A stretch of 64,000 nt of DNA from Candidatus Pantoea floridensis. Its GTDB lineage: Bacteria; Pseudomonadota; Gammaproteobacteria; Enterobacterales; Enterobacteriaceae. Position 1 is the first letter of the stretch. Each line of letters starts with the position of its first letter. The position numbers and the translations under genes were made by a program. Of the stretch, positions 25,588 to 50,805 are shown piece by piece. Where the stretch lies: assembly GCF_900215435.1 (NCBI RefSeq), contig NZ_OCMY01000001.1, positions 2,852,001-2,916,000 on the forward strand. The letters run 5' to 3'. The notes beneath the pieces were generated by a model. The model was not told the origin of the DNA. It made no database searches and saw only the letters and a program-made list of their open reading frames with translations.

Positions 25588-25727
25588 AAGAATCTCTAGA
25601 TTTGATCTTTCTTACATAATTTTAGTTTTATAGGGTGACACTCAGAATTCTTCGTCTAAAATCATTGAGTAAACCACTTGTAGTTCTTATTGTAGTTCTT
25701 AAAAATTTTAAAATGGGAAAATTTGCA

Positions 25728-26138: not shown

Positions 26139-26149
26139 AAAATATTTTA

Positions 26150-26181
26150 GCCAATCCATTTTATTGGGTTGGCCTTTCTTT
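26150..26181 (+). terminator. Terminator of the H-NS-like gene
   Basis: GCCAATCC and GGGTTGGC pair over 8 bp (one wobble) around ATTTTATT, followed by CTTTCTTTAATTTT, 11 bases after the stop. Confidence 0.75.
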
Positions 26182-26185
26182 AATT

Positions 26186-26765
26186 TTGTTTTTAATGAAA
26201 TTATTTTTAGTGCTAAGCTAAACCCCTTCTATTAATACTCCCTTATTAAAATTGGTTCTTATCATTATAACTACCATCCTCATCCATGATTATCAATGTT
26301 AGTAAAATATCAACTTTAAAAATCTTTTAAAAGATCCTTAATTCGGTAGTGGACAAATAGAATGGCATATTAAATTTGACTAAGTGTTTTTGGTGTGCTA
26401 ATTAAATAATCATTCTAAGGAATAAATGAATTAAAATTAATTTAAAAATGCAAGATATAAATGATTTATTCAAGGGTATGTTGCAAAATACTTTACTGGA
26501 ATTATTTAAAAGTGAGAGATACCAAGGGATAAAGTAGTGAATAGTTAGTATCAGGTAAATAGAATAAACCTTCTATCTACCTTATATATAAATGTAAAAA
26601 TAATTTTAGATCCACTTGATATTACTGGATTTATTAAGTAAAAGACAATAATTTATTTGCAAGATACTTATAGGTCATTTTCTATGTAGGTTATACATAT
26701 ACCTATTTTGCAAGATTTTTAATTAAGAATGGAACTAAAATAATGTAAATAAAATAAGGAGACAT
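26186..26765. other. AT-rich gene-free stretch before the recombinase module
   Basis: About 580 bases, very A/T-rich. No coding frame longer than about 30 codons has a ribosome site. It probably holds the promoter of the four-gene recombinase unit and possibly H-NS nucleation tracts; AAGGAG before 26766 is the only clear signal. Confidence 0.5.
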
Positions 26766-27968: not shown

Positions 27969-29500
27969 TGTTAAAAGTATATGTTAATGGTGAAGATAAT
28001 GGGAGCGCTTATGAAGCTAAAACGAAAGGTTATTACTTTTTCCTAAATGATGAGGCATGGAGACTAAGCCGAAATGTGACGGTAAATATCAAAATGGTTA
28101 AGGATGTAATTGATAAAGAATTAATGGAAGGATATTTAAAGGTGCTTAAATATCTGGCTTGTGAATTAAGCCCTGCTTCAGTTAAAGTAATAAATAATAA
28201 TTTCAGGAGGTTTATTGTAAGTGTAGAGCCAAAGCGAGTTGATGAGTTTTCCCTTGTGAGGTTTAGAGGATCTGATGGCAAGAACAATAATATTATGTCA
28301 TCGGTAAGGATACTCATAAAAAAATGGTATGAATTGGGTTACTCTGGAATAGATGAAGATGCATATGATTTCTTGTGTAAATTGATAATCACTGACAACA
28401 AAAAAGGAGAAGTTGTAAGAAGAAGAGATAAAGTTAAAGGCCCACTTACTGATATAGAATTACAATCTTTTCTTGAAGCTTGCTATAGAGCATATGAAAA
28501 AGGAAACATAGATATTACTCAATTAGCGATGGCTTTGCTGACAAGCGCAACCGGAAGAAGGCCACTACAGATTTCACAGATGAAGGTATCTGATATAAGA
28601 AGGCTAAAAGTAAATGAGAATAGCTATTCATATGTCATTAGCATCCCAAGGATAAAGCAAGGCTTGGGATTCAGGGAAGCTTGCAGAAATTTTCAAGTGA
28701 CAAAAGAATTATACGATTTACTCCGTAAGCAGTGCGATTTGAGCATCGAGCAAATTCGTAGCATACTTAAAAGAGAGCTAACTAACAAAGAGATTGAAAA
28801 TACACCGCTATTTATATCAATGCAAAAGTTAGAAAGCTTCAAAATAAATAATGAATTGAGAGAGATATTTGTATCGGATAAAGCTCACGAATACTCTGTA
28901 AAGATAAATAAGACACTTGCTTTTATTGCTAAAACAGAAAATGTTATTTCGGAAAGAACTTATGAAAGATTAAATGTAAACCCTCGACGATTTCGTTATA
29001 CGGTTGGCACAAGAGCTGCGAGAGAAGGTGCCAGCGAATTAGTTATTGCAGAACTATTAGATCACTCTACAACTCAATATACGGGGGTATACGTTGAATT
29101 TAATGCTGATCATGTTGCAAGAATTGATGATGCAGTGGGAAATCATATGAAAAAATATGCTGGTTTTTTCCAAGGTAAAATTCAGGGTGATGACTCAATA
29201 AAGAAAAATGAATTAGCAGTTAGGGATTTATCAGGGGATGTCACTGGAGCATGTGGTGGTTGTAAATCATGTCGGGCTAATGTTCCTGTCCCTTGTTATA
29301 CCTGCCATCACTTTCGCCCATTTATTGATGCACCACATATAGAACTACGAGATCATTTATTAAAACAAAGAGAAAGAATTATGACTGATACTAATGATGA
29401 AACTATGAGTAAAACATTAGACAGAACAATAATGGCTGTAGAAGAAGTAGTGAAAAAATGTGAGACTTTAAAATTACAAAGGAGCAATAGGTATGAATGA
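27968..29500 (+). CDS. Tyrosine recombinase 2, GmtY-like
   Basis: 510 residues. The catalytic core has Arg in SATGRRPLQISQMK, an unusual PRRFRYTVGTRAARE box (Arg where His normally stands), LLDHSTTQYTG and Tyr in VYVEFN. The tail carries a Cys/His-rich knuckle (CGGCKSCRANVPVPCYTCHHF). AGGAGGTG precedes the start. The order recombinase, larger recombinase, small coiled-coil protein fits the Gamma-Mobile-Trio genes gmtY-gmtZ-gmtX; the match is from memory of that family and should be read as probable. Confidence 0.65.
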   Translation: MLKVYVNGEDNGSAYEAKTKGYYFFLNDEAWRLSRNVTVNIKMVKDVIDKELMEGYLKVLKYLACELSPASVKVINNNFRRFIVSVEPKRVDEFSLVRFRGSDGKNNNIMSSVRILIKKWYELGYSGIDEDAYDFLCKLIITDNKKGEVVRRRDKVKGPLTDIELQSFLEACYRAYEKGNIDITQLAMALLTSATGRRPLQISQMKVSDIRRLKVNENSYSYVISIPRIKQGLGFREACRNFQVTKELYDLLRKQCDLSIEQIRSILKRELTNKEIENTPLFISMQKLESFKINNELREIFVSDKAHEYSVKINKTLAFIAKTENVISERTYERLNVNPRRFRYTVGTRAAREGASELVIAELLDHSTTQYTGVYVEFNADHVARIDDAVGNHMKKYAGFFQGKIQGDDSIKKNELAVRDLSGDVTGACGGCKSCRANVPVPCYTCHHFRPFIDAPHIELRDHLLKQRERIMTDTNDETMSKTLDRTIMAVEEVVKKCETLKLQRSNRYE

Positions 29501-31322
29501 AAGTGATATAATTAATTTTAGGAATAAAACAGAAATCTTAGCAGGGGAAAATCTTAACGAATTTATTCTAAATTGTAAAGAACAACTAAGTGGCAATCTA
29601 CTTGATAACAAATGGGAGAGTAATCATTGGAAGAAAATATTTAAATTTTCTAAATTTAAGATGAAGAATGTCAAGTTGGATTCGTTCATTAAAGCTGAAG
29701 ATCTTGATTCCTCTTACATTGAATTTTGCAAATCATATGTAGCTTATATTTTTTGCTCTAATCTTAAAGGATTTGATAAACTAACTTTTCCAATTGTGCT
29801 TAGGGTGATTGAAAAAAATTTATTAGTTTTTACTGGGTCTGGTGATATAAAATCACTAAACCAAGTCATTCTCGATGAGTGCTTGTCCGACATTAATAAA
29901 AACTACACTAAAGGAGTTGCATATAGTTGTGGTAAATTTATGGAGAGATTGGTTGCTTTCCTGAATGAGAAAGAATTCCTTAATTGTGGATTAATGAAGT
30001 GGAGTAGTTACATCAGACCACCTGAATCAAGGCTGTCGATTTCTGATAATGCAGACAATACCAGATTAGCGAAACTGCCTAATGAAAGAGCATTACGAGC
30101 AATTGGTGAAATCTTTTCAATGCAGGATTATGACCTTCACGAAAGAGACCTGTTTGTTACTTCAGTGTTTGCATTGCTGATGTGCGCACCCAGTCGTATA
30201 TCTGAAATATTATCACTTAGAGCTGATTGTGAAATTGTTGAGAAGAACAGGGAAGGAAAGGAATGCTATGGCCTGAGATTCTATTCACTGAAAGGTTTTG
30301 GGGCAAACATTAAGTGGATACCTGAAATTATGGTTCCTACTGCCAAACTTGCAATTAAGAGATTGTTAAAGTTATCTGAAAATTCAAGAGCAAGAAGTAA
30401 GATGCTTGAGGAAGAAATAAAAAATGGGTCAGGTGGAACAATCTGGTTTGATAAAGAGAAAGATGTTCGCTTCAGTAATGCTCTATGTGCTCTCCTCAAT
30501 AACCAGCTCAGTATGAAACGACGAACAGGTAATGATCTGTTTAAAATAACAAATGCTTTCTTCTCTAAAGAGTTAGGCTATTCAAAAATCAGTAAGCATA
30601 AGAATCTTTTCGAAAGGCATGGTTATCACGATGAGGATAATAAACCTTTCTTTCTTAGAACTCATCAAGCCAGACATCTACTTAACACTCTCGCCCAAAG
30701 AGGGGGCCTCGGAGAACTGGACATAGCAAAGTGGTCAGGCAGAGTGTCCATTACCCAGAACAGAGTTTACAACCACATCACTGAAGACGAAATGATTGAA
30801 AAAGTGAAAGCTCTGGGCATTAATCAAAATAATATAATTCCCTGCGATAGTGATGTGAATGGGAACTTTGAAATTTCAACTATTCATGAATTAAAAAATG
30901 AGTTAGAGCATGGTGCTGTTCATACTACTGAGTATGGATATTGTGTTCATGATTATACTTTTGCTCCCTGTAGCAAATACTTTGATTGTATCAACTGTAG
31001 TGAGCAGGTATGTGTCAAAGGGGAGAAGCAGAAACTTGAAAGGCTCAGGTCCTTACTTGATACGACTGAAGACCTCGTTGATAAGGCTAAAGAAGCTATC
31101 AGTGAAGAGGAACTTGGAGCTGACAAGTGGTATCAGCATCAAACGAAGACACTTGAAAGAGTGAAGGGGATTATTGCATTGATGGAATATCCCGAACTAC
31201 CTGATGGTTCGCTTGTAAGAACGCATGGGGACGATTTTTCACACTTTTCTCGTATTTTAGAAATGAAGAAGGATAACAAGATAACTAACAAGGAGAGTAA
31301 TAATGGCCAAACACCTTACTAA
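29493..31322 (+). CDS. Large tyrosine recombinase 3, GmtZ-like
   Basis: 609 residues. Arg in LMCAPSRISEILSLRAD, THQARHLLNTLAQRGG (HxxxH-type box), WSGRVSITQN and Tyr in RVYNHITEDEM give a full set of catalytic positions. A C-terminal Cys cluster (CVHDYTFAPCSKYFDCINCSEQVC) and a Lys/Glu-rich helical end follow. AGGAGCAATAGGT precedes the ATG; it overlaps both neighbours. Probable GmtZ; Tn554 TnpB is the more distant parallel. Confidence 0.65.
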   Translation: MNESDIINFRNKTEILAGENLNEFILNCKEQLSGNLLDNKWESNHWKKIFKFSKFKMKNVKLDSFIKAEDLDSSYIEFCKSYVAYIFCSNLKGFDKLTFPIVLRVIEKNLLVFTGSGDIKSLNQVILDECLSDINKNYTKGVAYSCGKFMERLVAFLNEKEFLNCGLMKWSSYIRPPESRLSISDNADNTRLAKLPNERALRAIGEIFSMQDYDLHERDLFVTSVFALLMCAPSRISEILSLRADCEIVEKNREGKECYGLRFYSLKGFGANIKWIPEIMVPTAKLAIKRLLKLSENSRARSKMLEEEIKNGSGGTIWFDKEKDVRFSNALCALLNNQLSMKRRTGNDLFKITNAFFSKELGYSKISKHKNLFERHGYHDEDNKPFFLRTHQARHLLNTLAQRGGLGELDIAKWSGRVSITQNRVYNHITEDEMIEKVKALGINQNNIIPCDSDVNGNFEISTIHELKNELEHGAVHTTEYGYCVHDYTFAPCSKYFDCINCSEQVCVKGEKQKLERLRSLLDTTEDLVDKAKEAISEEELGADKWYQHQTKTLERVKGIIALMEYPELPDGSLVRTHGDDFSHFSRILEMKKDNKITNKESNNGQTPY

Positions 31323-31716
31323 TAAAGATCTACAAATAATTATAAATTCTATAGCAGGATGGCAGACCTTAAGGCAGGGGAAGTTTACCTGGGAAAACCT
31401 TTGTGACTCTGTTACCGAGCTTTTGGGTAAGAGACCAACGAGACAGTCTCTAAGTCAGCATACAGCTATAGTCAGGGCTTTTGAGCTTCAAAAGAAGAAC
31501 ATAAAATCTGGAGCATCTGAAGTCAAAAGACCTGCAAACCTCAGCATAGCTTCACAGCAGATAAAAAATTTGCAGTTGAAAAATGAATCGCTCAAAGAAG
31601 AAGTCAGAGTTTTAAAACAGCAATTTGTGATATGGCAATATAATGCTCACAAACATGGAATTAAAGAACATCAACTCAATGAACCCTTAATTTCAGTTGA
31701 TAGAGAAAGGAGTTAA
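31303..31716 (+). CDS. Small coiled-coil accessory protein, GmtX-like
   Basis: 137 residues, starting inside the end of the previous gene with AAGGAG before the ATG. The N-terminal half has an HTH-like appearance (ITNSIAGW...FTWENLCDSVTELLGKRPTRQSLSQH). The second half is a heptad coiled coil (SIASQQIKNLQLKNESLKEEVRVLKQQFVIWQYNAHKHG). Size, order and coiled coil agree with GmtX and with TnpC of Tn554, which orients that transposon's insertion. Confidence 0.65.
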   Translation: MAKHLTNKDLQIIINSIAGWQTLRQGKFTWENLCDSVTELLGKRPTRQSLSQHTAIVRAFELQKKNIKSGASEVKRPANLSIASQQIKNLQLKNESLKEEVRVLKQQFVIWQYNAHKHGIKEHQLNEPLISVDRERS

Positions 31717-31851: not shown

Positions 31852-33093
<1,242 letters not shown>

Positions 33094-34079: not shown

Positions 34080-34172
34080 ATGATCAAGTTCTCTACTCTG
34101 TCTCAGCGCATTTCTGCTATCACTGAAGAAAATGCTATGTATACCAAAGGTCAGGTTATCGTCCTTAGCTGA
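34080..34172 (+). CDS. paaP: Pantocin A precursor peptide PaaP
   Basis: A 30-residue peptide that begins MIKFSTLSQRISAIT and ends MYTKGQVIVLS, with Glu16-Glu17-Asn18 between. Pantocin A is built from exactly this Glu-Glu-Asn core: the two Glu side chains and backbone form the bicycle, and leader and follower are removed. AAGAGGG lies 7 bases before the ATG. The three genes behind it are the expected paaA, paaB and paaC. The product is an antibiotic reported to inhibit histidinol-phosphate aminotransferase. The gene is easily missed because of its size. Confidence 0.93.
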   Translation: MIKFSTLSQRISAITEENAMYTKGQVIVLS

Positions 34173-34184
34173 TAACGTATGACA

Positions 34185-34218
34185 AAGGCCGCATCTCGTA
34201 TGCGGCCTTACTTTTTTT
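34185..34218 (+). terminator. Hairpin terminator between paaP and paaA
   Basis: AAGGCCGCAT-ctcgt-ATGCGGCCTT, a perfect 10-bp stem, is followed by ACTTTTTTT. It stands 12 bases after paaP and directly before the paaA ribosome site. It would let much precursor mRNA be made while a fraction reads through to the enzymes, as is common in peptide-antibiotic operons. Confidence 0.88.
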
Positions 34219-34228
34219 GGAGCACACC

Positions 34229-35347
34229 ATGTCACTAACGAATATTAAACCCCTCATTAAAGAATCTCATCACATCATTCTCGCAGATGATGGAGATATT
34301 TGTATTGGAGAAATCCCAGGAGTATCTCAGGTCATCAATGATCCTCCTTCCTGGGTAAGACCAGCTCTTGCCAAAATGGATGGTAAAAGGACAGTTCCCC
34401 GGATTTTTAAAGAACTGGTCAGTGAGGGTGTCCAGATTGAAAGTGAACATCTGGATGGACTGGTTGCGGGCCTGGCGGAAAGGAAGCTCCTTCAGGACAA
34501 CTCCTTCTTCTCAAAAGTGCTGTCTGGTGAGGAAGTAGAAAGGTACAACAGGCAAATTCTTCAGTTCTCCCTGATAGATGCTGATAACCAACATCCTTTC
34601 GTGTATCAGGAACGGCTAAAGCAAAGTAAGGTAGCCATCTTCGGGATGGGAGGATGGGGCACATGGTGTGCACTTCAACTGGCTATGTCAGGTATAGGCA
34701 CCTTAAGACTCATTGATGGGGATGATGTCGAGTTGTCAAACATCAACCGGCAGGTGTTGTATCGCACAGATGATGTAGGCAAGAACAAAGTTGATGCGGC
34801 CAAAGATACGATCCTTGCCTATAACGAAAACGTGAATGTGGAGACATTCTTTGAGTTCGCTTCTCCCGACAGAACAAGACTTGAAGAACTCATTGGTGAC
34901 AGCACCTTCATCATCCTTGCCTGGGCAGCACTGGGTTACTATCGTAAGGACACTGCTGAAGAAATCATCCATAGCATAGCTAAAGACAAAGCCATCCCTG
35001 TTATTGAGCTGGGTGGTGATCCTTTAGAGATCTCCGTTGGTCCCATCTACCTCAATGATGGTGTTCATAGTGGATTCGATGAAGTTAAGAATTCTGTTAA
35101 GGATAAATATTACGACAGCAATTCAAACATTAGAAAGTTTCAGGAAGCCCGCCTTAAGCACTCGTTCATAGATGGTGACAGGAAGGTAAATGCCTGGCAA
35201 AGTGCTCCCTCATTATCAATCATGGCTGGTATTGTTACGGATCAGGTTGTCAAAACTATAACTGGCTACGACAAACCACACCTTGTGGGTAAAAAATTCA
35301 TTCTTTCATTGCAAGATTTCAAGTCTCGCGAAGAAGAGATTTTTTAA
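34229..35347 (+). CDS. paaA: Pantocin A synthase PaaA, ThiF/E1-like
   Basis: A ThiF/MccB-type adenylating enzyme that remodels the Glu-Glu of PaaP to the bicyclic core. Residues 1-115 are a peptide-recognition-like N-terminus (FKELVSEGVQIESEHLDGLVAGLAERKLL). The nucleotide fold is at GMGGWGTWCALQLAMSGIGTLRLIDGDDVELSNINRQVLYRTDDVGKNK, with the conserved Asp and Arg of E1 enzymes. 372 residues from ATG 34229 with GGAG six bases before it; a longer TTG-started frame would begin inside the terminator T-run. Confidence 0.92.
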   Translation: MSLTNIKPLIKESHHIILADDGDICIGEIPGVSQVINDPPSWVRPALAKMDGKRTVPRIFKELVSEGVQIESEHLDGLVAGLAERKLLQDNSFFSKVLSGEEVERYNRQILQFSLIDADNQHPFVYQERLKQSKVAIFGMGGWGTWCALQLAMSGIGTLRLIDGDDVELSNINRQVLYRTDDVGKNKVDAAKDTILAYNENVNVETFFEFASPDRTRLEELIGDSTFIILAWAALGYYRKDTAEEIIHSIAKDKAIPVIELGGDPLEISVGPIYLNDGVHSGFDEVKNSVKDKYYDSNSNIRKFQEARLKHSFIDGDRKVNAWQSAPSLSIMAGIVTDQVVKTITGYDKPHLVGKKFILSLQDFKSREEEIF

Positions 35348-36025
35348 ATGAGCATTGATAGTATTGCCTTTAACGACAAAGGTTATCTTACCAAAAACAT
35401 ACAATCTCAATTCGCTTCAAAAATTTATGAGATTATGGAGTCGTCACAGGATTCATCAGAGGAGTCCTGGACTTACATATACAAAAATTCCTTAGAACAA
35501 AAAGATCTCTCATTCTTGACTCCGGCAGATGAGATTGAAAAGAGTTTCAATTCTTGTTTTGCAGATTTTTGCGATAATAAATTCAGTTTCTTCTTCAGAA
35601 GAATCTCCAATGAAGTGAAAGATAATGTTGCTTCATGTGAAGCTTCAACAATTGCTTATAACTTTTGTAACTCCGATGAGTTTAAAGATCTGATTACTTG
35701 CTTAACCGGAAGGAAGATAGGGAATACCGACCTTTTCTATATCAATCGTTTCGATAAAGGCCATTTTCTCAACACCCATACGGATTCAGGTAACAATGTC
35801 GGGGTGGCCTTGAATATTACTCAAAATTGGGACCCGAACTTTGGTGGTTTAACACATATACTTGATCAGGATAGAAAGAAGGTAGTTGATACATTGACCC
35901 CAGGTTTTGCTGAGTTGTTTCTTTTTGATACATCAGAGAAACAGGTTCCTCATTTCGTATCGATGGTTACAGCTAATCAGAAAAGCAGGCGAATGTCTGT
36001 TATAGCAAGGTATGGGAAGGCATAG
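35348..36025 (+). CDS. paaB: 2-oxoglutarate/Fe(II) oxygenase PaaB
   Basis: A 225-residue prolyl-4-hydroxylase-like dioxygenase. Iron ligands are His and Asp in FLNTHTDSGNN and a distal His in EKQVPHFVSMV; the 2-oxoglutarate Arg is in KSRRMSVIARYG. It begins immediately after the paaA stop. In the pantocin A cluster an oxygenase of this kind is expected to act after the PaaA step. The exact site it oxidises cannot be told here. Confidence 0.9.
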   Translation: MSIDSIAFNDKGYLTKNIQSQFASKIYEIMESSQDSSEESWTYIYKNSLEQKDLSFLTPADEIEKSFNSCFADFCDNKFSFFFRRISNEVKDNVASCEASTIAYNFCNSDEFKDLITCLTGRKIGNTDLFYINRFDKGHFLNTHTDSGNNVGVALNITQNWDPNFGGLTHILDQDRKKVVDTLTPGFAELFLFDTSEKQVPHFVSMVTANQKSRRMSVIARYGKA

Positions 36026-36029
36026 ATTA

Positions 36030-36920
36030 ATGACTAAAAGTTCTTTTTGGCTTACGATGTTAATGGCTTCAATATGGGGCACTTCATTTCCTGTTTCAAA
36101 AATTGCGATCAATGTGATAGGGCCTTATGCATTCCGAATGGCGGGTTCTCTTGTATCATGTAGTATTATTTTTTTGATATTCAACAAAAGTATCCGTGAA
36201 AGCCTTAAAACCCTTAACTATGATGAATTTTTAAGAATCGCAATAATTGCGGTGCCAAATGTTTTCCTGGTTCCAACGCTCAATAGCATCGCACTTCACT
36301 TCACCTCTGTTACGAATGCGACAATCCTTGTTTACACAATGCCTTGCTTTACCTCGATTATCCTGATGGGCTTAGCAAGAAAGCTGAACTTACTCTCCCT
36401 GTTCTCACTCCTTCTTTGTATCTCGGGGATCTTGTTGATACTTAAAGAAGTGCATGTTGGGTTGGGTGAGGTTGTAATTCTGTGTAGTGCCATTTTCTGG
36501 GCTATGGGAGCTGTCGTTTCTCAAAAGATAGTGACTGTCACTCCATTTAAGGCGAGATTATTCTGGCAGATATTGGTTTCAACTATTCTGGTTTCCATTA
36601 CTTATCCTTTCTTTCAATCAGGTCCATTATTACAACCTATTGTCACTGCTTTCACTAATACTGAGTGTCTTCTTTGTGTTCTCTATCTCGGTATTGTAGG
36701 TAATGCACTGGTATATTTCATCTGGTTTTATCTCATTCAGAACGAGAGTGCAGAATTCGCAAGCTATGCGACTCTGCTATCACCCGTTATAACAGTAATT
36801 ATTGCTTCAACATTTCTCGATGAACAACCTACAAGCAAGCAAGTAATTGGTTTTAGCCTGATTTTAGTTAGTGCTCTTTTGGTGAATGTTATAAGGCCAT
36901 ATTTTTTTAAAAAATCTTAG
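36030..36920 (+). CDS. paaC: EamA-family transporter PaaC, probable exporter/immunity
   Basis: About 296 residues with ten hydrophobic spans in two EamA repeats (SIWGTSFPVSKIAINVIGPYAFRMAG...; AIFWAMGAVVSQKIVTVTPFKARLFWQI...; SPVITVIIASTFLDEQPTSKQ). The DMT superfamily exports small metabolites. As the last gene of paaPABC it probably exports the antibiotic and protects the producer. The start is ATG 36030 (GGAAGG upstream) or ATG 36012, which overlaps paaB. Confidence 0.88.
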   Translation: MTKSSFWLTMLMASIWGTSFPVSKIAINVIGPYAFRMAGSLVSCSIIFLIFNKSIRESLKTLNYDEFLRIAIIAVPNVFLVPTLNSIALHFTSVTNATILVYTMPCFTSIILMGLARKLNLLSLFSLLLCISGILLILKEVHVGLGEVVILCSAIFWAMGAVVSQKIVTVTPFKARLFWQILVSTILVSITYPFFQSGPLLQPIVTAFTNTECLLCVLYLGIVGNALVYFIWFYLIQNESAEFASYATLLSPVITVIIASTFLDEQPTSKQVIGFSLILVSALLVNVIRPYFFKKS

Positions 36921-37539: not shown

Positions 37540-39528
37540 TTAGTTAAGTAGTGAAATAAATCGTTCACTATATTCTTCTTCAGACTCCGTGTCATTATTA
37601 AGTATCCATATTGTTTGTCCTTTATAATAAATCATGAAAATAATATCTAAGTTCTTGCGGTATTCAGCTATTTTCCATAACAAAATATGGCAACGTTTAA
37701 ATAAATGGTCAAATCTTTGATTAAAAAGATAGTTGTAAACATTTCTCAATTTAGCAATATCTTCATCCTGAATGTTTTCAAGCATATTATTTTCTTCGAA
37801 CGTTTCATACTTAACGAGAAGTGCACGGCATTGATTATATGAGCTTGTTTCATAATGCAAAACTTCATCAAGAGATGATATTCTATCCTGTGGTTTTCTT
37901 TCCTTGTTCAAGTCAAGAGAAATGTTATTTGCAAGAGTGTGGAAGTTGAGTTTTCTGGATTTTCTAACTAATGAAGTTAGCGATTTAATACGTTCTTGTT
38001 TTGGCTTATTTAAGGACAAAACGCTATCAGATACAATATGTGCTATTGAGCTTGTTCTGAATTCTTTCTTTCTCCTTTTTGCTAATTCAATAGCTTTGCC
38101 TTCATCTGTTTTCTCTAAAAGATAAAGTTCCTGAACGTAACATTCAGATAAGGTAGGTTTGTCATCTGAAGGACATGTATTAAGACATTTTTCTAAGTAT
38201 GTTTTAGCATCTTTATACTTGCCAAGAATACGAAATGATGATGCTATAAATAAATAGTATTTGTAATAATGTGGAGGCGGAGTATCACCATAAGCCTCAA
38301 GCAGTTCAAGGCTAGAAGATATTACTTCATTATAGACGCAGGCGTTCTTTAAAGCATATACATATCTTAATGATAAAGTTGATAGTCGTGATAAATGACG
38401 AAGATGGCGCTCATACTCTTCAGGTGTGTCAACGAATTTATCTAAATTATGCTTACATTCGAATATATTTCGAACAAGTAAATAACATCCATTGTCTCCT
38501 TCTGTGCTATAACCCTGCTCAAGAACTCTTCTGTTTGTAGAGTTTATTTTTAAGCCATCTTTAGTTTCAACAATAGTTATATTTAAAAACTCACTCGAAA
38601 TAGCATTAATTTCTTCTATTTGCATTCCCGAAATAATATAGTCTTTTACAATAGGATTGATTTTTGCTATGTGAGTGTTATTGTCTATCATGATGGTTTT
38701 TGCTATACCCATATCAACAATTTTTTTGATGTTATCTAAGTCTATATCTCTGCCAATTTTGCTTTTTGTAATATTTTTTAATGACTCCCCATTTTTTAAA
38801 ATTGAGAGTATTTTTATTAGAGTGAAACTTAAAGTATCACTTGTGGATGTTTTTAAAGTTTCTATCTGTTTTAAAGTTTTTTCAGATATGGTTTCAAAAT
38901 AGCTAACGCCAACAAAAAGTGATTTTTTTTCAATTACGTCCTGTGCAGATGCATCATCCAAGTAGTATATAATACGGTCAAGTTTCTTTACAATACCTTC
39001 TGATAATGTATGAAAAGAGTGAAGTTCTTCATGAGAGAAAGTTCTTTCTTCAAAGCGGTTTTTAAGTATTAATGATACTTCATTGTAGGAAAGACTATCG
39101 AGCTTGACTGAAATGTCTCTAAATGCCCTGATAAATACATCAGAGGAGAAAACTATTATTGAATTTGGGTTGGTAGATGATATCTGATTTGTTAAGGATC
39201 GTAGATAGGATACTGCATCTTCGTCGAGATCATTCGAGCAGTTTTTAAAATGTAAAATTATTTTCTCATCGTGATGACTTATATAATGAAAAATTATCTG
39301 CGAAATATCTGCTCCAGCATCTGTTTTTATCTTGGATTCAAGCTGTTTTTTAGATATAACTTCAGAGAGATCAATCTGAATTAGCGCAGAGTCATCAAAA
39401 TCCATTGCATCTGCTATTGAGTATAAGAAATCAGATAAGCCATAACCAAGACCTGACTCAATAAAAACATTTTGCTTTTCAGTTAGAAAAGTCAGAGCCT
39501 TATTTTTTTCATTTTGTCGAGTATACAA
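37540..39528 (-). CDS. STAND-like NTPase/TPR half of a SIR2-STAND defence protein
   Basis: About 662 residues. The first 30 (RQNEKNKALTFLTEKQNVFIESGLGYGLSDFL) look like the start of a STAND NTPase, but the P-loop is G-L-G-Y-G-L-S: the Walker A Lys is replaced by Leu, and the Walker B region (KIILHFKNCSND) is degenerate. A winged-helix-like part and about 300 residues of helical TPR-like repeats follow (HYYKYYLFIASSFRILGKYKDAKTYLEKCL). The first codon here is TTG without ribosome site, and the frame is open back to 39627, through the end of the SIR2 gene. It is therefore probably reached by -1 frameshifting from SIR2. Confidence 0.75.
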   Translation of the reverse strand: MYTRQNEKNKALTFLTEKQNVFIESGLGYGLSDFLYSIADAMDFDDSALIQIDLSEVISKKQLESKIKTDAGADISQIIFHYISHHDEKIILHFKNCSNDLDEDAVSYLRSLTNQISSTNPNSIIVFSSDVFIRAFRDISVKLDSLSYNEVSLILKNRFEERTFSHEELHSFHTLSEGIVKKLDRIIYYLDDASAQDVIEKKSLFVGVSYFETISEKTLKQIETLKTSTSDTLSFTLIKILSILKNGESLKNITKSKIGRDIDLDNIKKIVDMGIAKTIMIDNNTHIAKINPIVKDYIISGMQIEEINAISSEFLNITIVETKDGLKINSTNRRVLEQGYSTEGDNGCYLLVRNIFECKHNLDKFVDTPEEYERHLRHLSRLSTLSLRYVYALKNACVYNEVISSSLELLEAYGDTPPPHYYKYYLFIASSFRILGKYKDAKTYLEKCLNTCPSDDKPTLSECYVQELYLLEKTDEGKAIELAKRRKKEFRTSSIAHIVSDSVLSLNKPKQERIKSLTSLVRKSRKLNFHTLANNISLDLNKERKPQDRISSLDEVLHYETSSYNQCRALLVKYETFEENNMLENIQDEDIAKLRNVYNYLFNQRFDHLFKRCHILLWKIAEYRKNLDIIFMIYYKGQTIWILNNDTESEEEYSERFISLLN

Positions 39529-39596
39529 ATAATGAGTTCTTCTATCGAAATGAGAAAAGTTAAAGCTCTGTGAGATGTTAGCTGCTGCTTTAGATA

Positions 39597-40499
39597 CTAC
39601 TTTTTTTTTTGAACTTCTACTAAGTTCTCATCTTTAAAAAATACTGAACAGTCGATACCTTTGAAAAACTGAATTCTTCCTTGTGCGATTGCGGGTGATA
39701 GCCGATCAAACCATTTTTCAAAGCTATCTTCTATCGTTTCAATTGAAGTTGGATAAAAACACCATGCAATTTTATAATCAGCATTTGGAAAATTTACTAT
39801 ATTGCTTAATGTACGTGTAAAGCTATCCTCCCATCCTCCATAAGCCATTATGACAACTGAAGTATTTAAAAATAACTCGTGTAGAGAACCTTCCAGTTTT
39901 TCTCTTTTGACATTTAACTGGCTATGCGAGTGCATAGTATCATTTTTGCTCCAGACACCATGAATATGGAATATATTTAATTCATCGTTGTGTCCTTCTG
40001 ACAGGTGCGAATCTGAAACCATGCTGAAGCAATTAGTCTTAATGTTTTTTTCTTCAAAAGATTCTTCAATTAAAGTGTCAAAGTTTGTAGTAACGATGTT
40101 TGCTACTCTATATTCTCCGTTTGCTATTGAAGATGTAAACTCATCGATAGCAGTAGGTATCCTGTGTTTATTTGTGCTGAGATCAATGTTGTCAGTAACA
40201 ATTTTTTTTATAATATCATTTATACCATTCTGACCTTGAATTGATGAAATAAATTCAAAGAGAGATTTGTACTCATCATTAAGACTGTTTTCTAATAGAA
40301 ATTCTTCGTACTCGAAGGTTCTGTTTCTTTTCGAAATTACGTCTTTGATTAGAGCCGATGTTTCTTGAACATCACATATACCAACGCCTTCTTTTTTTCT
40401 TGAAATAGCAGAACCCAGAACAAAAGTTATGGGTTTTTCTTCATCTCTAAGTCTGACTTTTAACGCATTTTGATTGTGATAAATTCTTTTTTTTGTCAC
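39597..40499 (-). CDS. SIR2-family NADase-like half of a SIR2-STAND defence protein
   Basis: 300 residues with a SIR2 fold: ITFVLGSAISRKKEGVGICDV (nucleotide loop), IVTTNFDTLIEESF (TxNxD motif), IFHIHGVWSKND (catalytic-type His) and VIMAYGGWEDSF. SIR2 domains in phage defence (Thoeris ThsA, DSR, SIR2-STAND Avs5) destroy NAD+ on infection. The GTG start has AAAGGA 8 bases before it. The gene ends in ...VQKKK-stop inside a ten-A tract; a shift by -1 there continues into the STAND half to give about 986 residues. Confidence 0.8.
   Translation of the reverse strand: MTKKRIYHNQNALKVRLRDEEKPITFVLGSAISRKKEGVGICDVQETSALIKDVISKRNRTFEYEEFLLENSLNDEYKSLFEFISSIQGQNGINDIIKKIVTDNIDLSTNKHRIPTAIDEFTSSIANGEYRVANIVTTNFDTLIEESFEEKNIKTNCFSMVSDSHLSEGHNDELNIFHIHGVWSKNDTMHSHSQLNVKREKLEGSLHELFLNTSVVIMAYGGWEDSFTRTLSNIVNFPNADYKIAWCFYPTSIETIEDSFEKWFDRLSPAIAQGRIQFFKGIDCSVFFKDENLVEVQKKK
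39600..39610 (-). promoter_or_regulatory. Ten-A tract ending in the slippery heptamer A-AAA-AAG
   Basis: On the minus strand the SIR2 frame reads CAA-AAA-AAA-AAG-TAG. A-AAA-AAG is the same heptamer used for -1 frameshifting in E. coli dnaX, and here it abuts the stop. The -1 frame reads GTA-GTA-TCT... and is open into the STAND half. Transcript slippage on the A-tract or a real indel would give the same join. Confidence 0.7.
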
Positions 40500-40675
40500 G
40501 ATTACAATCCTTTATATTAGGTGTTTTTTAGGTTGTTATGATTAATAAAAAAGATTAAATGTTGCAAATCTTTTTTTAAAGTATTTTTAAAGATTATTTT
40601 TCCAACAATTATTCTTTTTTTTGAAAGATTAGAAGGCTTTTCGTTCGTGTATCAGACGCTCTAAACTGTTAATCT

Positions 40676-41323
40676 TTAATTCTTTAGCAATGCACTGCTA
40701 TCAATGAAGGTTTTACGTGCTACATTTCCAACAATATTAGTTGAAATTCCATCGAAAGTACCGCCTATGATTCCACCGACTACGGGTATCATCTTGCCTA
40801 AGTTTATGGCTCCTTTTTCCCCAAATTTCGTTAGTAATCTAAAACCCACCTGCTTATTGATAGCAAAAATAGTTTCCTTTGAAATACTTTTGATCAACTG
40901 AGTAGACATTTTGGAACCGATGATGATGCCTGTACTTTTTAGTATGTCTTTAGCGGCATTTCCAGCAAGGCAGCTATAGACAATGGTTTTTACACGATCA
41001 TCTTTTACATCATATCCGCCCATGATAGCGATGGCTGTAATCATACGGATTTGGACGTAAATGACTGTAGCTATACTGGCAGGGATTGCAACCGGGAGGG
41101 TGATGACTCCACCAACACCTGAGATGAATCCAGCAGTGGCTGATTTGGTATTTTGCCAACGAATTAATGATTTTACTTTTTCTGCTAAACTGTCGTTACT
41201 TTTAAGATAGCTTTCGGCCATTTCATAGGCTGAATCTGTTCCTGGTAAGCTTCCATCCAGAGCCTTATCGTAAGCCCAATTGAGAGCCTGCATGATTTTA
41301 CCTTCGTTTAATGCTTCAGACAT
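40676..41323 (-). CDS. EcsC family protein
   Basis: 215 residues. The EcsC pattern is clear: AEKVKSLIRWQNTKSATAGFISGVGGVITLPVAIPASIATVIYVQIRMITAIAIMGGYDVKDDRVKTIVYSCLAG and the Gly-rich end GKMIPVVGGIIGGTFDGIST. EcsC proteins have two amphipathic or membrane-touching segments; their function is poorly known. It lies upstream of the SIR2 gene on the same strand, 176 bases apart, and could belong to the same defence unit. Confidence 0.85.
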   Translation of the reverse strand: MSEALNEGKIMQALNWAYDKALDGSLPGTDSAYEMAESYLKSNDSLAEKVKSLIRWQNTKSATAGFISGVGGVITLPVAIPASIATVIYVQIRMITAIAIMGGYDVKDDRVKTIVYSCLAGNAAKDILKSTGIIIGSKMSTQLIKSISKETIFAINKQVGFRLLTKFGEKGAINLGKMIPVVGGIIGGTFDGISTNIVGNVARKTFIDSSALLKN

Positions 41324-45774: not shown

Positions 45775-46050
45775 GTGATTGAAAAAAATATAGATAAAAC
45801 AGTGCATTCTGAGTGGGTGGTGAGGAGTAGTCTCTATTGGATGAGCACTGTCACCCGCTGGAAGCTGGATGAAGACAATGAGTACTGGCTCGTCTCGTTC
45901 GATGACTGGAATGACGGGGTTGAGTTCGAGTTTGAGCGACTTCTGAATGATTACAAACTTAGAGAGAAGCTTCAGGCACAAACCGGCCAAGTCAGGTCTT
46001 CTATCATCGATAATGTTCTGAGGAGTATTGATTCGAGACTCTCTCAATGA
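45775..46050 (+). CDS. hxsD: His-Xaa-Ser system protein HxsD
   Basis: 91 residues (GTG start): MIEKNIDKTVHSEWVVRSSLYWMSTVTRWKLD... FEFERLLNDYKLREKLQAQTGQVRSSIIDNVL. It resembles HxsD, the small protein of the HxsDBCA system, in size, sequence style and place directly before the radical SAM genes. It may be a peptide-recognition or chaperone subunit. It overlaps hxsB by 4 bases. The ribosome site is weak. Confidence 0.82.
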   Translation: MIEKNIDKTVHSEWVVRSSLYWMSTVTRWKLDEDNEYWLVSFDDWNDGVEFEFERLLNDYKLREKLQAQTGQVRSSIIDNVLRSIDSRLSQ

Positions 46051-47441
46051 ACACTATGCCATTCAACTTTGACCGCCTGAGCAATGGCAAAGTCTTCATC
46101 AGCAACCTTGCTGGCTTTCACAGCTTCGTTAATAACGAAGAACTGAGCTTACTTGCCGATAACAGCTTTCCTCCAGAGCAAACCACCTCCCGACTACTTG
46201 AAAGCCGATTGTTCATTGCTGACGATGCAACTCAGGCAGTTTCAAAAGCTTCTCTGAGTTCAGCCTTTGCCAAACGACTGATGAATGAACTGGCCGTCCG
46301 TCCAATCTTCATGATAGTGCCGACTCTCAGGTGCGATCACACTTGCAAGTATTGCCAGGTCAGCAGAGCATCGGTCACCGCTGATGGTTACGATCTGAAT
46401 CCAAAACTGATACCACAAATCGTAAGCACCATTAAGAAGCTGGGCATCCCACCTTACAAGATTGAAGTGCAGGGCGGAGAACCGCTTCTCAGGTTCGATC
46501 TCGTCCAGTCAATTTATGATGAGTGTGTGAGTTCGTTAGGTAGTGATGCTTTCGAAATGGTTATTGCTACCAGTCTCTCAATACTGGATGAAGGCATTCT
46601 CTCATGGGTGAAAGAACGGAATATCACCTTCTCCGCTTCTCTTGATGGTAATGAAGCTGTCCACAATAAAAACCGTATCCTTACCGATTATCAGGCTCAC
46701 AACAAAGCCGTCACGGGCATTAGAAAAATCACAGAAGAGCTGGGAGCAAACCGGGTAGCTACGGTAACCACAGTTACTAAGGAGCTGACAAAAGAGCCAG
46801 CTTCCATAGTGGATGCTCATCTGTCTCTTGGCATCACTGACATGTTTATCCGGCCTGTAAGTCCCTACGGGTTTGCTCAGAAGCAGAGCTTTGCTTTTTC
46901 AATGCCTGAATATTTTGAGTTTTATAAAAAGTTAATGCAGGAAGTGTTGCTTCAGAACCAGAAGGGCATACCTGTCGTTGAGCATTCGGCTTCAATCCAT
47001 CTAAAGCGGATTTTCAATCCGGGTTTCAGTGGTTATGCAGATCTGAAATCACCAAGCGGAGTAGTGCTGAACTGCATCCTGTTCAACTATGACGGTAAGG
47101 TCTACGGTAGTGACGAAAGCCGTATGCTCCAGAAAGTAAATCCCGAAGCAGATTTCAGTGCCGGAGAGTTTGCCTCACTCTCATTCAGTAGCAACGAATA
47201 CTACCGTTCCGCTCTCTCATCATCATTCAACTTCGCCATGCCAGGTTGTGACACCTGCGCTTATCAGCCTTTCTGTGGAGCAGATCCTTGCCAGAACATC
47301 AGTGTTCATGGGGAGCCTGTTGGAGATAAGAGTCGATCAACCTTCTGCCAGTATCACAAGGGGATGTTCCGCTTCCTCCTGAATGAAATCTCTCAGGATG
47401 GACCAATGGCTGAGATGCTCAAAAGGTGGGCTTATGTCTGA
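46047..47441 (+). CDS. hxsB: His-Xaa-Ser system radical SAM maturase HxsB
   Basis: 464 residues. The radical SAM motif is TLRCDHTCKYCQVSR (Cys-x3-Cys-x2-Cys), followed by EVQGGEPLLRFD (GGEP, SAM binding). The C-terminus has SPASM-like auxiliary cluster cysteines (GCDTCAYQPFCGADPCQN...FCQYHKGM). It is expected to modify the His-Xaa-Ser repeat protein HxsA. The chemistry is not established to my knowledge. Confidence 0.88.
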   Translation: MNTMPFNFDRLSNGKVFISNLAGFHSFVNNEELSLLADNSFPPEQTTSRLLESRLFIADDATQAVSKASLSSAFAKRLMNELAVRPIFMIVPTLRCDHTCKYCQVSRASVTADGYDLNPKLIPQIVSTIKKLGIPPYKIEVQGGEPLLRFDLVQSIYDECVSSLGSDAFEMVIATSLSILDEGILSWVKERNITFSASLDGNEAVHNKNRILTDYQAHNKAVTGIRKITEELGANRVATVTTVTKELTKEPASIVDAHLSLGITDMFIRPVSPYGFAQKQSFAFSMPEYFEFYKKLMQEVLLQNQKGIPVVEHSASIHLKRIFNPGFSGYADLKSPSGVVLNCILFNYDGKVYGSDESRMLQKVNPEADFSAGEFASLSFSSNEYYRSALSSSFNFAMPGCDTCAYQPFCGADPCQNISVHGEPVGDKSRSTFCQYHKGMFRFLLNEISQDGPMAEMLKRWAYV

Positions 47442-48546
47442 GGTGCTGAGAAACGATATTTTCCGGTTTTCATCAGATTTACCCGTTCAGCAAGGCTTCT
47501 ATTGCCTGTGTAAAACCAAGCCCGAGAATCCTCAATTCTATCTGCCAAATTTGCTTGTCACTTCAACACAACTCGATTCCAGACTGCCTGCATATTTTGC
47601 AGACTCGATTGTGAGCCAGGAACTTTTCGATTCCATTGAAAATGGTGACATTGGGATTGTGAACAACGGAAACATGCTCCGGGTGATACTGTCCCGTAGA
47701 GCAAACCACAACACTGTCCTTGTCACTGAAAGGTGCAACAACAGTTGCCTGTTTTGTTCTCAGCCTCCTAAAGCTGGAAACGATGACTGGCTTCTTAACA
47801 AGTCAGCTCTGGCTATAGCTTCCTTTTCTCTGAATGGAGTAGTGGGAGTGAGCGGGGGAGAGCCTTTGCTCTATGGCGAAGACTTCCTGCATTTTCTGGA
47901 CTTCATAATCGAAAATTCCCCTGACACAGCACTGCATGTTCTTACCAACGGACGGAAATTTGCGGATGTCAGCTTTACCCAGCAGATGAAAGAAAGAAGC
48001 GAGAAGATCAAAATCACGTTTGGGATACCGCTTTATTCCTCAAGAGCATCAGTGCACGACTACCTTGTCGGAAGCGAGGGAGCATTTGATGAAACAGTCA
48101 GGGGAATGATCAATGCCGGTAACTCAGGGATCAACATAGAACTGAGAGTCATCCCTACTCAGGCGAACTTCAAAGAGCTTGATGACATAGTAGAGTTTGC
48201 TGGTCGTGTGTTCTCGAACATTAACCAGATCTCCCTGATGGGACTTGAGTCGATTGGATGGGCCCGTAAAAACTGGTCATCAATCTTTATAGAGCACGAC
48301 AACTACAGCGAACAAATCCTTTCGGCTGTAGACACTGCACACAGGTCAGGTATCCCTCTTACCATCTTCAATTATCCACTGTGTCACCTTCCTGAAAGGG
48401 CATGGGATTTTGCTACACAGTCCATCTCAGACTGGAAAAATTACTATCCCAAAGAATGTGATGAATGCACTCAGAAGTCTTCCTGTGCTGGTTATTTCAG
48501 TTCGTCAAAAGGCCGTTTTCATCAACCTCCGAGACCAATAATATGA
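47434..48546 (+). CDS. hxsC: His-Xaa-Ser system radical SAM maturase HxsC
   Basis: 370 residues from ATG 47434 (AAAGGTGGG upstream, overlapping hxsB by 8 bases). The radical SAM motif is TERCNNSCLFCSQPPK, then VSGGEPLLYG. C-terminal Cys residues in PKECDECTQKSSCAGYFSSS could hold an auxiliary cluster. It is the second maturase of the pair. The start of hxsA overlaps its stop (ATGA). Confidence 0.87.
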   Translation: MSEVLRNDIFRFSSDLPVQQGFYCLCKTKPENPQFYLPNLLVTSTQLDSRLPAYFADSIVSQELFDSIENGDIGIVNNGNMLRVILSRRANHNTVLVTERCNNSCLFCSQPPKAGNDDWLLNKSALAIASFSLNGVVGVSGGEPLLYGEDFLHFLDFIIENSPDTALHVLTNGRKFADVSFTQQMKERSEKIKITFGIPLYSSRASVHDYLVGSEGAFDETVRGMINAGNSGINIELRVIPTQANFKELDDIVEFAGRVFSNINQISLMGLESIGWARKNWSSIFIEHDNYSEQILSAVDTAHRSGIPLTIFNYPLCHLPERAWDFATQSISDWKNYYPKECDECTQKSSCAGYFSSSKGRFHQPPRPII

Positions 48547-49178
48547 AAAAGTTTAATTTCGCGGCTCTGCTTCCTGGATTTTTGGCTCTTAATAACTCTG
48601 TATGGGCAAGTGATTCATCTACTGGTGCCAGTGATTTACCTGGCATGACCCTGAACGAACATGATTTGGTGATAGCCCCGCTCAACACCGAAGTGCCGTT
48701 CTACATTGCAGGACACAGAAGTCACAGTTCTCACCGTAGCCACAGCTCACACCGTTCCTCATCAGGCGGTGGTTACTATGGCGGAAGCACTCCTTACTAT
48801 CCCAAAACATACAGCTCGCCAAGCACTTCAGACTCATCCAGTTCAGGAACTCGTTCGTCGTCCTCCTCCTCCTCAGTCCGTTCGCTTCGTTCTAATGACA
48901 CGGATAGCTCAACTACAACAAGCTCAGCAGGAACCACAGGTGCCAACCGTGCAAGTAGTGGGCTGACTGCTGATACAGAAAAACGTAAGCGGTTAATCAT
49001 GAGAGTGCAGTTCGCCTTGCTCGATAAAGGTTTTTACAACGGTAATATTGACGGGAGCATGGGGCCAGCCACAAGGACAGCAATTAAGAATTATAGGGTT
49101 GCGAATGGATTGCCTACTCCAGTAAGAGAAACATTAGACACTCAGCTATTGAACTCCTTAAATATACTGGCCCGATAA
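48543..49178 (+). CDS. hxsA: His-Xaa-Ser repeat protein HxsA
   Basis: 211 residues with a signal peptide (to about NNSVWA). The repeat core GHRSHSSHRSHSSHRSSS has five consecutive His-x-Ser units at about residues 57-72; a Gly/Tyr and Ser-rich region follows. A C-terminal peptidoglycan-binding domain is present (LIMRVQFALLDKGFYNGNIDGSMGPATRTAIKNYRVANGLP). It is the predicted substrate of HxsB/HxsC. The modified protein is probably exported to the periplasm and tethered to the cell wall. Confidence 0.9.
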   Translation: MKKFNFAALLPGFLALNNSVWASDSSTGASDLPGMTLNEHDLVIAPLNTEVPFYIAGHRSHSSHRSHSSHRSSSGGGYYGGSTPYYPKTYSSPSTSDSSSSGTRSSSSSSSVRSLRSNDTDSSTTTSSAGTTGANRASSGLTADTEKRKRLIMRVQFALLDKGFYNGNIDGSMGPATRTAIKNYRVANGLPTPVRETLDTQLLNSLNILAR

Positions 49179-49197
49179 GACATTGGGAGTAAATATA

Positions 49198-50805
49198 ATG
49201 AAGATAAAACTTTCAATTTATAAAACAAAAAAAATTACTGATGACATTGATCAGGTTTTGAATTTGGAAAAAGTCCAAAAACCTATTGAATTTGAAATGG
49301 ATGATGCAAGAGCATACCTCTTTGCAAAGCAAATTTCTGACCCAGTGCTACCTGAATGGACTACTTTATTTACAAGCCAAAAGGCAGACATAAAGCCCGA
49401 TTTTTTTGGTATGAATAGTAGCACTGGAGCAGTACTGGTGGTTGAGGTTGATAACTCAAGGTATCTTATTCCGTTTGGAACTGGTCATCACTTAATTAAT
49501 GATAGTTGCATTGTCAAAGGTTTTGGACTGAAAACAACCCTTAAATGTATTGAACATAAAAAAATCCGTAGCCTGGATAAAGGTAGTCATAACGAAACCA
49601 ATCTTTTAACCCGTAGTCAAAGTAGTAAAGAAGTCGATATATATAATCTTAAAATAGATTCTGAGATGGATATTCTCACGACCCTCACGGGCACTTCCAC
49701 TGAAGATGTTTTAGGAAATAAAATAACTGGAAAAGATGCTTTTGTAATTATGCCTGATATTGAATTGAAAGCTATTCCCGAATTGTTATCTAAAATAAAT
49801 TCTATTTATCTTTTACCACTTCCTGAAGAATTCGAGTGGGTTAATAATATTAAAGAAGCCGACGAAGAAGAAATTGAAATATTGGATCTCATTTTAATTG
49901 AGAAAATAAAATCAAGAGAATTTGATGATGTATGGATTGGAGAGCCTGAAATAGTTGACTGGGAAAATCAAATAGGTTATTGCTTCGAGAAGAGACAACG
50001 ATTTGTACATGAAAACTTGTCAGTAGAACAAGTTTGTGATTTTTTCGACAGTAAAAATACAGAGATAACTATTGACGATCTTAAAAAAAATTGCCTGCAT
50101 GTTTTGAATGCCGATTTTGAATCCATAAAAAAATGGTCCCTATATAGATGCTTTTATGCTGAGATAAAAGAGGGCGACCAGAACTATATTTTAAGAGACT
50201 CGATATGGTATGTTGCCGATAGAAAATTCGTAACAACCATTGATGATGAGATGAAAAAGATTCTACATTATGAGGAGTCTGATAAGTTTCCGGTATACTC
50301 TTATAAAAGAGAAGAAGATTACAATAAAAATGTTTGTCTTGGTGACACATCATTTACACACATGGATCAAAAATTTATTCATCATGGTGGAGGAAAAAGT
50401 AAAATTGAATTTTGCGACCTTATAAAAGATGCATCAGATTTTATTCATGTGAAATATTATAGTGGTTCACAAAGTATGAGCCACCTTTTCTCACAAGGAT
50501 TTGTCGGTTCTGAACTTTTTATAAGCGATTCAGAGTTCCGTGGGAAACTTAATGAGAAGCTTCCTGACCATATAAAATTAGCTGATCATGTAAAGCGACC
50601 TGATGCCAAAAATTATAAACTAGTTTTCGCCATAGCTACGAACAAAAAACTGCCTGAAGATTTGCCTTTGTTTTCAAAAATCAATTTAAAAAACTTTCAC
50701 AAGAGTATTAGAAATTTTGGTTACGAAGTCAGGATCTGCAAAATAGATGTAGATCCTAATATTTACAAAAGGAAATTATGTAAGCCACAAAAAAACAAGC
50801 TTTAA
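49198..50805 (+). CDS. TIGR04141/DUF6119 family sporadically distributed protein
   Basis: 535 residues from ATG 49198 with GGGAG 8 bases before it. The N-terminus KIKLSIYKTKKITDDIDQVL, the FFGMNSSTGAVLVVEVDNSRYLIPFGTGHHLI block and HGGGKSKIEFCDLIKDASDFIHVKYYSGSQSMSHLFSQG match the family as I remember it. Its function is not known; a role in phage defence has been proposed for such sporadic genes. It lies 20 bases after hxsA on the same strand, so it may be co-transcribed with hxsDBCA. Confidence 0.8.
   Translation: MKIKLSIYKTKKITDDIDQVLNLEKVQKPIEFEMDDARAYLFAKQISDPVLPEWTTLFTSQKADIKPDFFGMNSSTGAVLVVEVDNSRYLIPFGTGHHLINDSCIVKGFGLKTTLKCIEHKKIRSLDKGSHNETNLLTRSQSSKEVDIYNLKIDSEMDILTTLTGTSTEDVLGNKITGKDAFVIMPDIELKAIPELLSKINSIYLLPLPEEFEWVNNIKEADEEEIEILDLILIEKIKSREFDDVWIGEPEIVDWENQIGYCFEKRQRFVHENLSVEQVCDFFDSKNTEITIDDLKKNCLHVLNADFESIKKWSLYRCFYAEIKEGDQNYILRDSIWYVADRKFVTTIDDEMKKILHYEESDKFPVYSYKREEDYNKNVCLGDTSFTHMDQKFIHHGGGKSKIEFCDLIKDASDFIHVKYYSGSQSMSHLFSQGFVGSELFISDSEFRGKLNEKLPDHIKLADHVKRPDAKNYKLVFAIATNKKLPEDLPLFSKINLKNFHKSIRNFGYEVRICKIDVDPNIYKRKLCKPQKNKL

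Follow-up and report, generated by a model that had tools for sequence, protein, structure and literature searches.

A stretch of 64,000 nucleotides from Candidatus Pantoea floridensis (assembly GCF_900215435.1, contig NZ_OCMY01000001.1, positions 2,852,001 to 2,916,000; here called the window, always at its full length) carries a gene for a SIR2-domain protein whose frame runs through a tract of ten A residues and stops directly behind it, and past that stop a STAND-like NTPase with tetratricopeptide repeats (TPRs) is encoded in the -1 frame. The two parts are very likely a single gene from which conserved programmed recoding at the tract makes two products, a reading whose probability we put at roughly 0.8. 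When no slippage occurs the ribosome would stop right after the lysines and release a free SIR2 domain of 300 residues; after a -1 shift, or on an mRNA with one extra A, reading would enter the STAND-TPR part and yield a SIR2-STAND-TPR protein of 986 residues. An earlier note, made from the letters of the window, had proposed recoding of this kind, and the conservation of the junction across the family together with the existence of natural in-frame fusions strongly supports it.

Anatomy of the gene in the window

At its 3' end the SIR2 frame reads CAA AAA AAA AAG TAG, the ten-A tract included, just as the earlier note had described it (Table 1). Other particulars of that note stand as well: reading the frames bears out that the -1 frame stays open from 39627 on, across the whole STAND/TPR frame, the TTG that would start this second frame on its own has no ribosome site (a Shine-Dalgarno (SD) piece was looked for upstream of it and none was found), and the fused product, put at about 986 residues, comes to 986 by arithmetic. 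The tract is the sole A/T run of ten or more in the window, which has two runs of nine elsewhere, and is one of six A10 runs in the entire 5.45-Mb genome, both strands counted. Selection against A/T runs is described in PMC1088944 as evident at a length of nine in a large share of genomes.

Pfam recognizes SIR2_2 in the first part of the gene (E 5.2e-12), and the TTNFD motif is invariant in 32 of the 32 rows of SIR2 alignment A2. In the second part Pfam gives only sub-threshold TPR matches, and PADLOC and NCBIfam gave nothing useful there (best PprRE, E 0.025); the STAND assignment comes from the fold, not from Pfam. An AlphaFold model of the STAND-TPR part, with a mean predicted local distance difference test score (pLDDT) of 85.3, has the STAND-TPR structure 6mfv as its best Foldseek match (E 1.3e-10) and also matches 9jap, EfAvs5 (E 8.6e-5).

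Table 1. Features of the SIR2/STAND-TPR gene, in positions of the window.
Feature	Position	Strand	Remarks
SIR2 open reading frame, short product	39597..40499	-	GTG start, 300 residues, stop TAG at 39597-39599
AAGGA, likely ribosome site of the SIR2 frame	40508..40512	-	From the sequence; precedes the SIR2 GTG
Ten-A tract, putative slippage site	39601..39610	-	T run 39601-39610 on the plus strand
Putative slip heptamer A AAA AAG	39600..39606	-	In the SIR2 frame, TAG directly after
-1 frame, open through the A tract to the first possible STAND start codon	39529..39627	-	
STAND-like NTPase and TPR superhelix	37540..39528	-	662 residues from TTG, -1 frame; read as part of the 986-residue fusion
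Degenerate P-loop ESGLGYGLSDF	39427..39459	-	Without GK[ST]

A conserved junction in split relatives

A search of the protein collection gave 48 matches for the SIR2 part and 14 for the STAND part, each count taking in that of the window itself. The SIR2 search took candidates of up to 1.75 times the query length, so that its list could not hold fusions; the STAND search scored the 7996 candidates sharing most words, and its matches comprise 12 separate proteins of 421-688 residues and two SIR2 fusions, P0011 and P0014, of 978 and 986 residues. A Lys-Lys pair lies within the last 30 residues of 47 of the 48 SIR2 matches, the exception (P0046) being cut short, and in 44 of these 47 the first such pair after a [VI][DNE]C motif comes at 15-18 residues, whereas 5% of the 15-residue windows elsewhere in these proteins hold one. 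The chain ends a median of one codon past the lysine run, whereas a proxy out-of-frame reading meets a stop after a median of seven, in rows that are related and not independent; this count used the first Lys-Lys of P0052 and not the last, and the tail of 7 given to that protein should be 0.

Twelve split loci were read as DNA: the window, L058 from the same genus, L002 from Citrobacter, L005 from Photobacterium, L004 from Colwellia, plasmids of Klebsiella (L045 and L049), Enterobacter (L055), Proteus (L046) and Vibrio (L044), and the viral contigs L030 and L032. Excluded were L066 and L057, with frame breaks inside SIR2 away from the slip site, and L006, which has a second frame break in SIR2, its junction being A9 and its STAND frame lying at -1 to that of SIR2 itself; L061 has the same junction as L005, and L051-L054 duplicate viral contigs already in the set. 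In all twelve loci the STAND frame lies in -1 relative to SIR2, and in all twelve the junction bears a run of A, six long in L045 and L058, nine in L044 and L046, ten in seven loci and eleven in L049.

An ATG, GTG or TTG with an SD piece, sought in the -1 frame from -30 to +210 nt of the SIR2 stop, was found in 0 of the 12 split loci, contrary to the possibility, raised in the earlier note, that homologues are always two genes with ribosome sites of their own. Start codons of whatever type first appear there at +170 nt in L004, +179 in L030, +149 in L032 and +206 in L044, so that these four have none before +149 nt, a point already past the P-loop region. Counted from the SIR2 stop, relatives differ mainly at third codon positions of the -1 frame: over 40 codons that hold no start codon, the first, second and third positions differ 9, 8 and 17 times between L004 and L044, 11, 10 and 17 times between L004 and L030, and 13, 10 and 19 times between L044 and L030. 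The corresponding counts are 3, 3 and 7 over 12 codons for the window and L002, and 6, 7 and 19 over 60 codons for L049 and L055, where a start becomes possible after the first 14 to 20 codons. The STAND part could hardly be produced except as a fusion. At E up to 1, Rfam placed no family on the junctions of L045, L058, L037 or L002.

Two probable recoding routes at one site

The dnaX gene slips on lysine codons. PMC1088944 describes transcriptional slippage on A9 for dnaX of Thermus and ribosomal frameshifting for that of E. coli. The earlier note had called the heptamer in the window dnaX-type, which holds for the heptamer itself, present as X_XXY_YYZ in the right frame (A AAA AAG), and not for the stimulators, as the window with its A10 tract has neither an SD-like element upstream nor, at the 5-8 nt downstream usual for such cassettes, a stable hairpin (near-hairpin z 0.2).

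Both stimulators occur in the two members with A6G at the junction. The SD-like piece upstream is GAGGT in L045 and AAGGA in L058, and a hairpin begins 5-6 nt downstream in each (-15.1 kcal/mol, z -3.8 in L045; -10.9 kcal/mol, z -4.0 in L058). The lower stems of the two occupy matching columns of the alignment; two double changes leave the pairing intact, a third pair has become G-U and another is lost in L058. Of the 31 six-pair stems tested in the coding stretches of L045, four are kept in L058 and this one alone has at least two double changes; when the partner is slid by 1-3 columns, pairing in the L045/L058 stem falls from 93% to at most 36%. Together, the upstream SD-like element and the compensatory changes in the hairpin point to dnaX-type ribosomal frameshifting in these two relatives. 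The ten members with A9-A11, the window included, have no SD-like element (0/10) and no stable near hairpin, their 40-nt hairpin z values ranging from -0.6 to +0.6 and the lowest at 75 nt being -1.5 (L049), and this combination suggests transcriptional slippage; the A10 tract of the window is also a run of the nine or more A or T, within a coding part, looked for in genes of that kind. Further A6G split loci were sought in plasmids, viral contigs and genomes, and none more was found.

Of the mechanisms that the earlier note had offered side by side, the two A6G relatives agree best with ribosomal frameshifting, and the window with transcriptional slippage. Provided that recoding occurs, the gene in the window would probably rely mainly on transcriptional slippage on its A10 tract, with A AAA AAG adding some ribosomal slippage, and the A6G relatives would use a ribosomal shift aided by the SD-like element and the hairpin. 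One family thus seems, from its sequences, to employ two recoding routes at one site to arrive at SIR2 alone plus SIR2-STAND-TPR.

Fused relatives and alternative explanations

Homologues were also compared for in-frame fusions, and natural ones exist, namely the proteins P0011 and P0014 and several loci. In a tree of 60 SIR2 rows 44 are split and 16 fused, with at least six changes of state; the split state dominates the main group, and fusions are nested within it. This was the second of two trees. The first was built without P0046, P0058 and P0015, and 15 loci dropped out of it for lack of the motif used for extraction; for the second, 14 rows of the first were removed (12 close relatives or copies, the long branch P0057 and the partial L007) and 14 of the 15 motif-less loci were added, L056 being in neither tree and the midpoint root serving for drawing only. 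In the first tree L045 and L058 belong to a clade with 12 further proteins, P0036-P0042, P0055 and P0061 among them. Seven fusions (L008, L041, L050 and L062-L065) have no slippery run at the place of the junction; six of them branch outside the rest in this midpoint-rooted drawing, and L008 groups with L049, L055, L009 and L047. Seven other in-frame fused loci, representing about three lineages, retain a slippery run of A6-A10 in the linker, followed 1-3 codons later by a stop in the -1 frame, at the place used by the split members in L003, L043, L060, L031 and L059 and about 11 residues further along in L009 and L047. Slippage in these run-bearing fused loci would yield free SIR2, as it gives dnaX its short product, and this pattern is suggestive only. 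A strong near hairpin was looked for in the fused loci tested and not found (40-nt z -0.5 to 1.0; L007 reaches -2.9 at 60 nt).

Several points weigh against the recoding reading or against parts of it. The close -1 stops of the fused loci are not decisive, given that a stop would be met by chance within three codons with a probability of about 0.32 and within six of 0.48, estimated from the proxy out-of-frame reading. The A6G group is readable as DNA in two loci only, so that the hairpin comparison rests on two, and with two rows the shuffle control of the L045/L058 stem is powerless (121 of 500 as high). The codon-position counts for L045 and L058 (27, 28 and 27) were taken out of register and carry no information. 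Under a scripted hairpin energy rule with GC closing, which was adapted from PMC4066793, L058 has a score of -5.8, short of the limit of 7.6 stated there, and the long-tract members L002 (-9.9), L049 (-15.7) and L055 (-9.8) pass; the two groups divide clearly by near-hairpin z and the SD-like element, but not by this rule.

The most serious alternative is that recoding merely sets a low dose of a dangerous fusion and that the free SIR2 is a harmless by-product. Such throttling agrees with the stop that comes right after the slip in most members and with the seven relatives that are plain fusions without a tract. It agrees less well with the seven fused loci that keep both a run and a close -1 stop and would make free SIR2, although descent plus chance may account for these. 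We hold throttling to be less likely than not.

A phase switch, also put forward in the earlier note, would have the tract gain or lose an A at the DNA level, so that the fusion is switched on in some subclones and off in others. There is one hint of this: two Klebsiella plasmid regions, L049 and L056, are 99.78% identical over 8129 columns and differ at about 4816-4833, where L049 has 11 A and is annotated as two genes and L056 has 12 A and is annotated as one fused gene. The difference of one A in this sole pair could reflect genuine switching, a single mutation or an error in the reads. A switch would leave the retention of the site unexplained and would make the OFF state that of 44 of the 60 tree rows; further, the two members with only A6, judged too short for ready DNA slippage, nevertheless carry frameshift-type stimulators. 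We hold a phase switch to be very improbable.

Less probable again is an arrangement of two genes in which the STAND part is started independently or by coupling to the SIR2 stop. The records do annotate it separately, with starts about 57 to 279 nt past the end of the SIR2 gene, but the absence of SD-bearing starts, the four loci devoid of early start codons, the third-position bias ahead of any start, the -1 frame in 12 of 12 loci and the natural fusions all speak against it. A sequencing error or a pseudogene is the least probable reading of all, for all that homopolymers are error-prone and the copies in L006, L007, L057 and L066 are broken elsewhere in SIR2, because like junctions recur in the window's genus, Citrobacter, Klebsiella, Enterobacter, Proteus, Photobacterium, Vibrio and Colwellia, and both parts are conserved.

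Possible function

With recoding as the preferred reading, we infer from domains and fold an NAD-degrading abortive-infection receptor. In the fusion the TPR part would sense a phage signal, the STAND part would relay it and the SIR2 part would degrade NAD; the free SIR2, probably in excess, would join assemblies seeded by the fusion. Filament structures have been deposited for Avs5, ThsA and KomBC, going by the entry titles, and filaments are reportedly linked, in the titles of two papers, to activation of Avs5 and Thoeris. An abundant free SIR2 and a rare fusion would suit the seeding of mixed assemblies. More tentatively, and with less than even confidence, these may be immune receptors whose effector-to-sensor ratio is set by recoding, with many free SIR2 domains and few fusions acting as phage-triggered seeds for SIR2 assembly; evolution would then have swapped one recoding route for the other at the same codon pair to keep the ratio, which could itself shift when an infection interferes with RNA polymerase or lysine tRNA.

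If this is true, programmed recoding would add a level of control to NLR-like immunity in bacteria, and annotation would have recorded these receptors as a bare SIR2 protein plus an orphan TPR protein. Within one gene family, nature would also have set two recoding routes with the same outcome side by side for comparison, much as it has with dnaX among bacteria. The family would further allow a direct test of whether the effector-to-sensor ratio matters in filament-forming SIR2 systems.

Distribution and genomic setting

Names among the SIR2 matches include Rahnella, Vibrio, Photobacterium, Citrobacter, Klebsiella, Serratia, Yersinia enterocolitica, Providencia, Morganella, Dickeya and Pantoea, and the SIR2 row of L058 lies at zero distance from P0052 of Pantoea deleyi. 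The gene is sparse. Genomes with a match at E 1e-20 number 2 of 394 in the order, 2 of 61 in the genus and, in two draws, 5 of 392 and 2 of 227 in the family, and at E 1e-12 the class has 1 of 369, the window's genome being included in each case. The family of G229 has 9 of 329 genomes with a match, and the genera of G682 and G540 have 1 of 17 and 1 of 30; the draws overlap, and some genomes recur between counts. Thirteen plasmid records match the SIR2 protein, eight of them predicted to be conjugative. DNA of the window gene found no match in E. coli genomes (near mode) or in plasmids (distant mode), DNA of L032 and L045 found none in E. coli genomes (distant mode), and the SIR2 proteins found none in phage records. 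Copies broken inside SIR2 by nonsense or frame break, off the slip site, were seen in L007 (at 4598), L006 (at 4814), L066 and L057, and perhaps reflect decay of a costly gene.

GC content is 32% in the gene, 36% in the stretch from 23.5 to 46 kb and 56% in core genes from 2 to 20 kb, and mutS lies at 20803-23364 of the window; the gene looks as if it sits in an island adjoining mutS. At the island boundary, beside mutS, 23522-31716 (plus strand) encodes three phage-integrase-family proteins and a 609-residue protein with no Pfam match at E 0.01. Just upstream of SIR2, at 40676-41323 (minus strand), is an EcsC-family protein that strongly matches PADLOC candidate PDC-S29 (E 3.5e-87). On the plus strand, 34080-36920 holds a 30-residue open reading frame with an EEN core, a ThiF protein with a PaaA-like N domain, a 2OG oxygenase and an EamA transporter, a cluster that we take to be pantocin A-like; 46047-50805 codes for a pair of radical SAM proteins and for a DUF6119 protein, and may be a locus of peptide modification or of defence; and the protein at 31852-33093 has a long Glu-Pro repeat tail, which gives a Gln-Ala open reading frame on the opposite strand. 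In L045, an IS1222 frameshifting element (Rfam RF00383) lies at 2407-2524 (plus strand), about 1.4 kb upstream of the SIR2 gene.

Comparison with known systems

Judged from structural models, the fold is nearest to Avs5, DSR2 and ThsA, but the lysine of the P-loop is missing. The earlier note had seen the layout of SIR2-STAND/DSR-type systems here; the tie to DSR and Avs systems is drawn from domains and fold only. Avs5 (AVAST type 5) likewise consists of SIR2, then a STAND NTPase, then C-terminal repeats, and Foldseek matches the natural fusion P0014 best to the AVAST5 filament 9nc9 (E 1.8e-11). The N-terminal SIR2 of Avs5 has a TTNxD motif that the window family shares as TTNFD, and where Avs5 has GAGxS the window has LGSAIS, which is only partly alike. 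The Walker A motif GPAGSGKT of PaAvs5 is described as needed for immunity (PMC12931631), whereas Walker A GxxxxGK[ST] is found in 0 of the 14 rows of STAND alignment A1 (P0002 starts after the region); the window gene also differs from Avs5 in being split by a recoding site and not a single open frame. With DSR2 and ThsA the natural fusion P0014 shares the SIR2 fold of NADases, by fold only, the structure rows that align at least 330 of its residues to DSR2 having a root mean square deviation above 14. PADLOC named no DSR2 family on the window SIR2 and gave only weak matches to ThsA, and the recoding site and the STAND-TPR part set the present family apart from both.

A recoding-controlled SIR2 defence system was not found among the top-listed titles of the literature searched, most subscription papers lying outside its reach, which is not proof of novelty. 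In the portions available, 'SIR2' is absent from the main text of the survey PMC3711429 and from the review PMC5009743, and a ribosome-profiling study of Lactococcus describes recoding in other genes (PMC10986495). Among recoded genes, the IS3-type OrfA/OrfAB and mxiE are alike in that the shift leads to the longer product (for mxiE, PMC1088944), and SD-like and hairpin stimulators are described for IS911 and IS3 (PMC4066793); the gene here, however, would encode neither a transposase nor a regulator. The dnaX gene is alike in being one gene with two products, but normal decoding there leads to the long product, whereas here it would usually lead to the short one, and the gene here would be that of an immune-type receptor.

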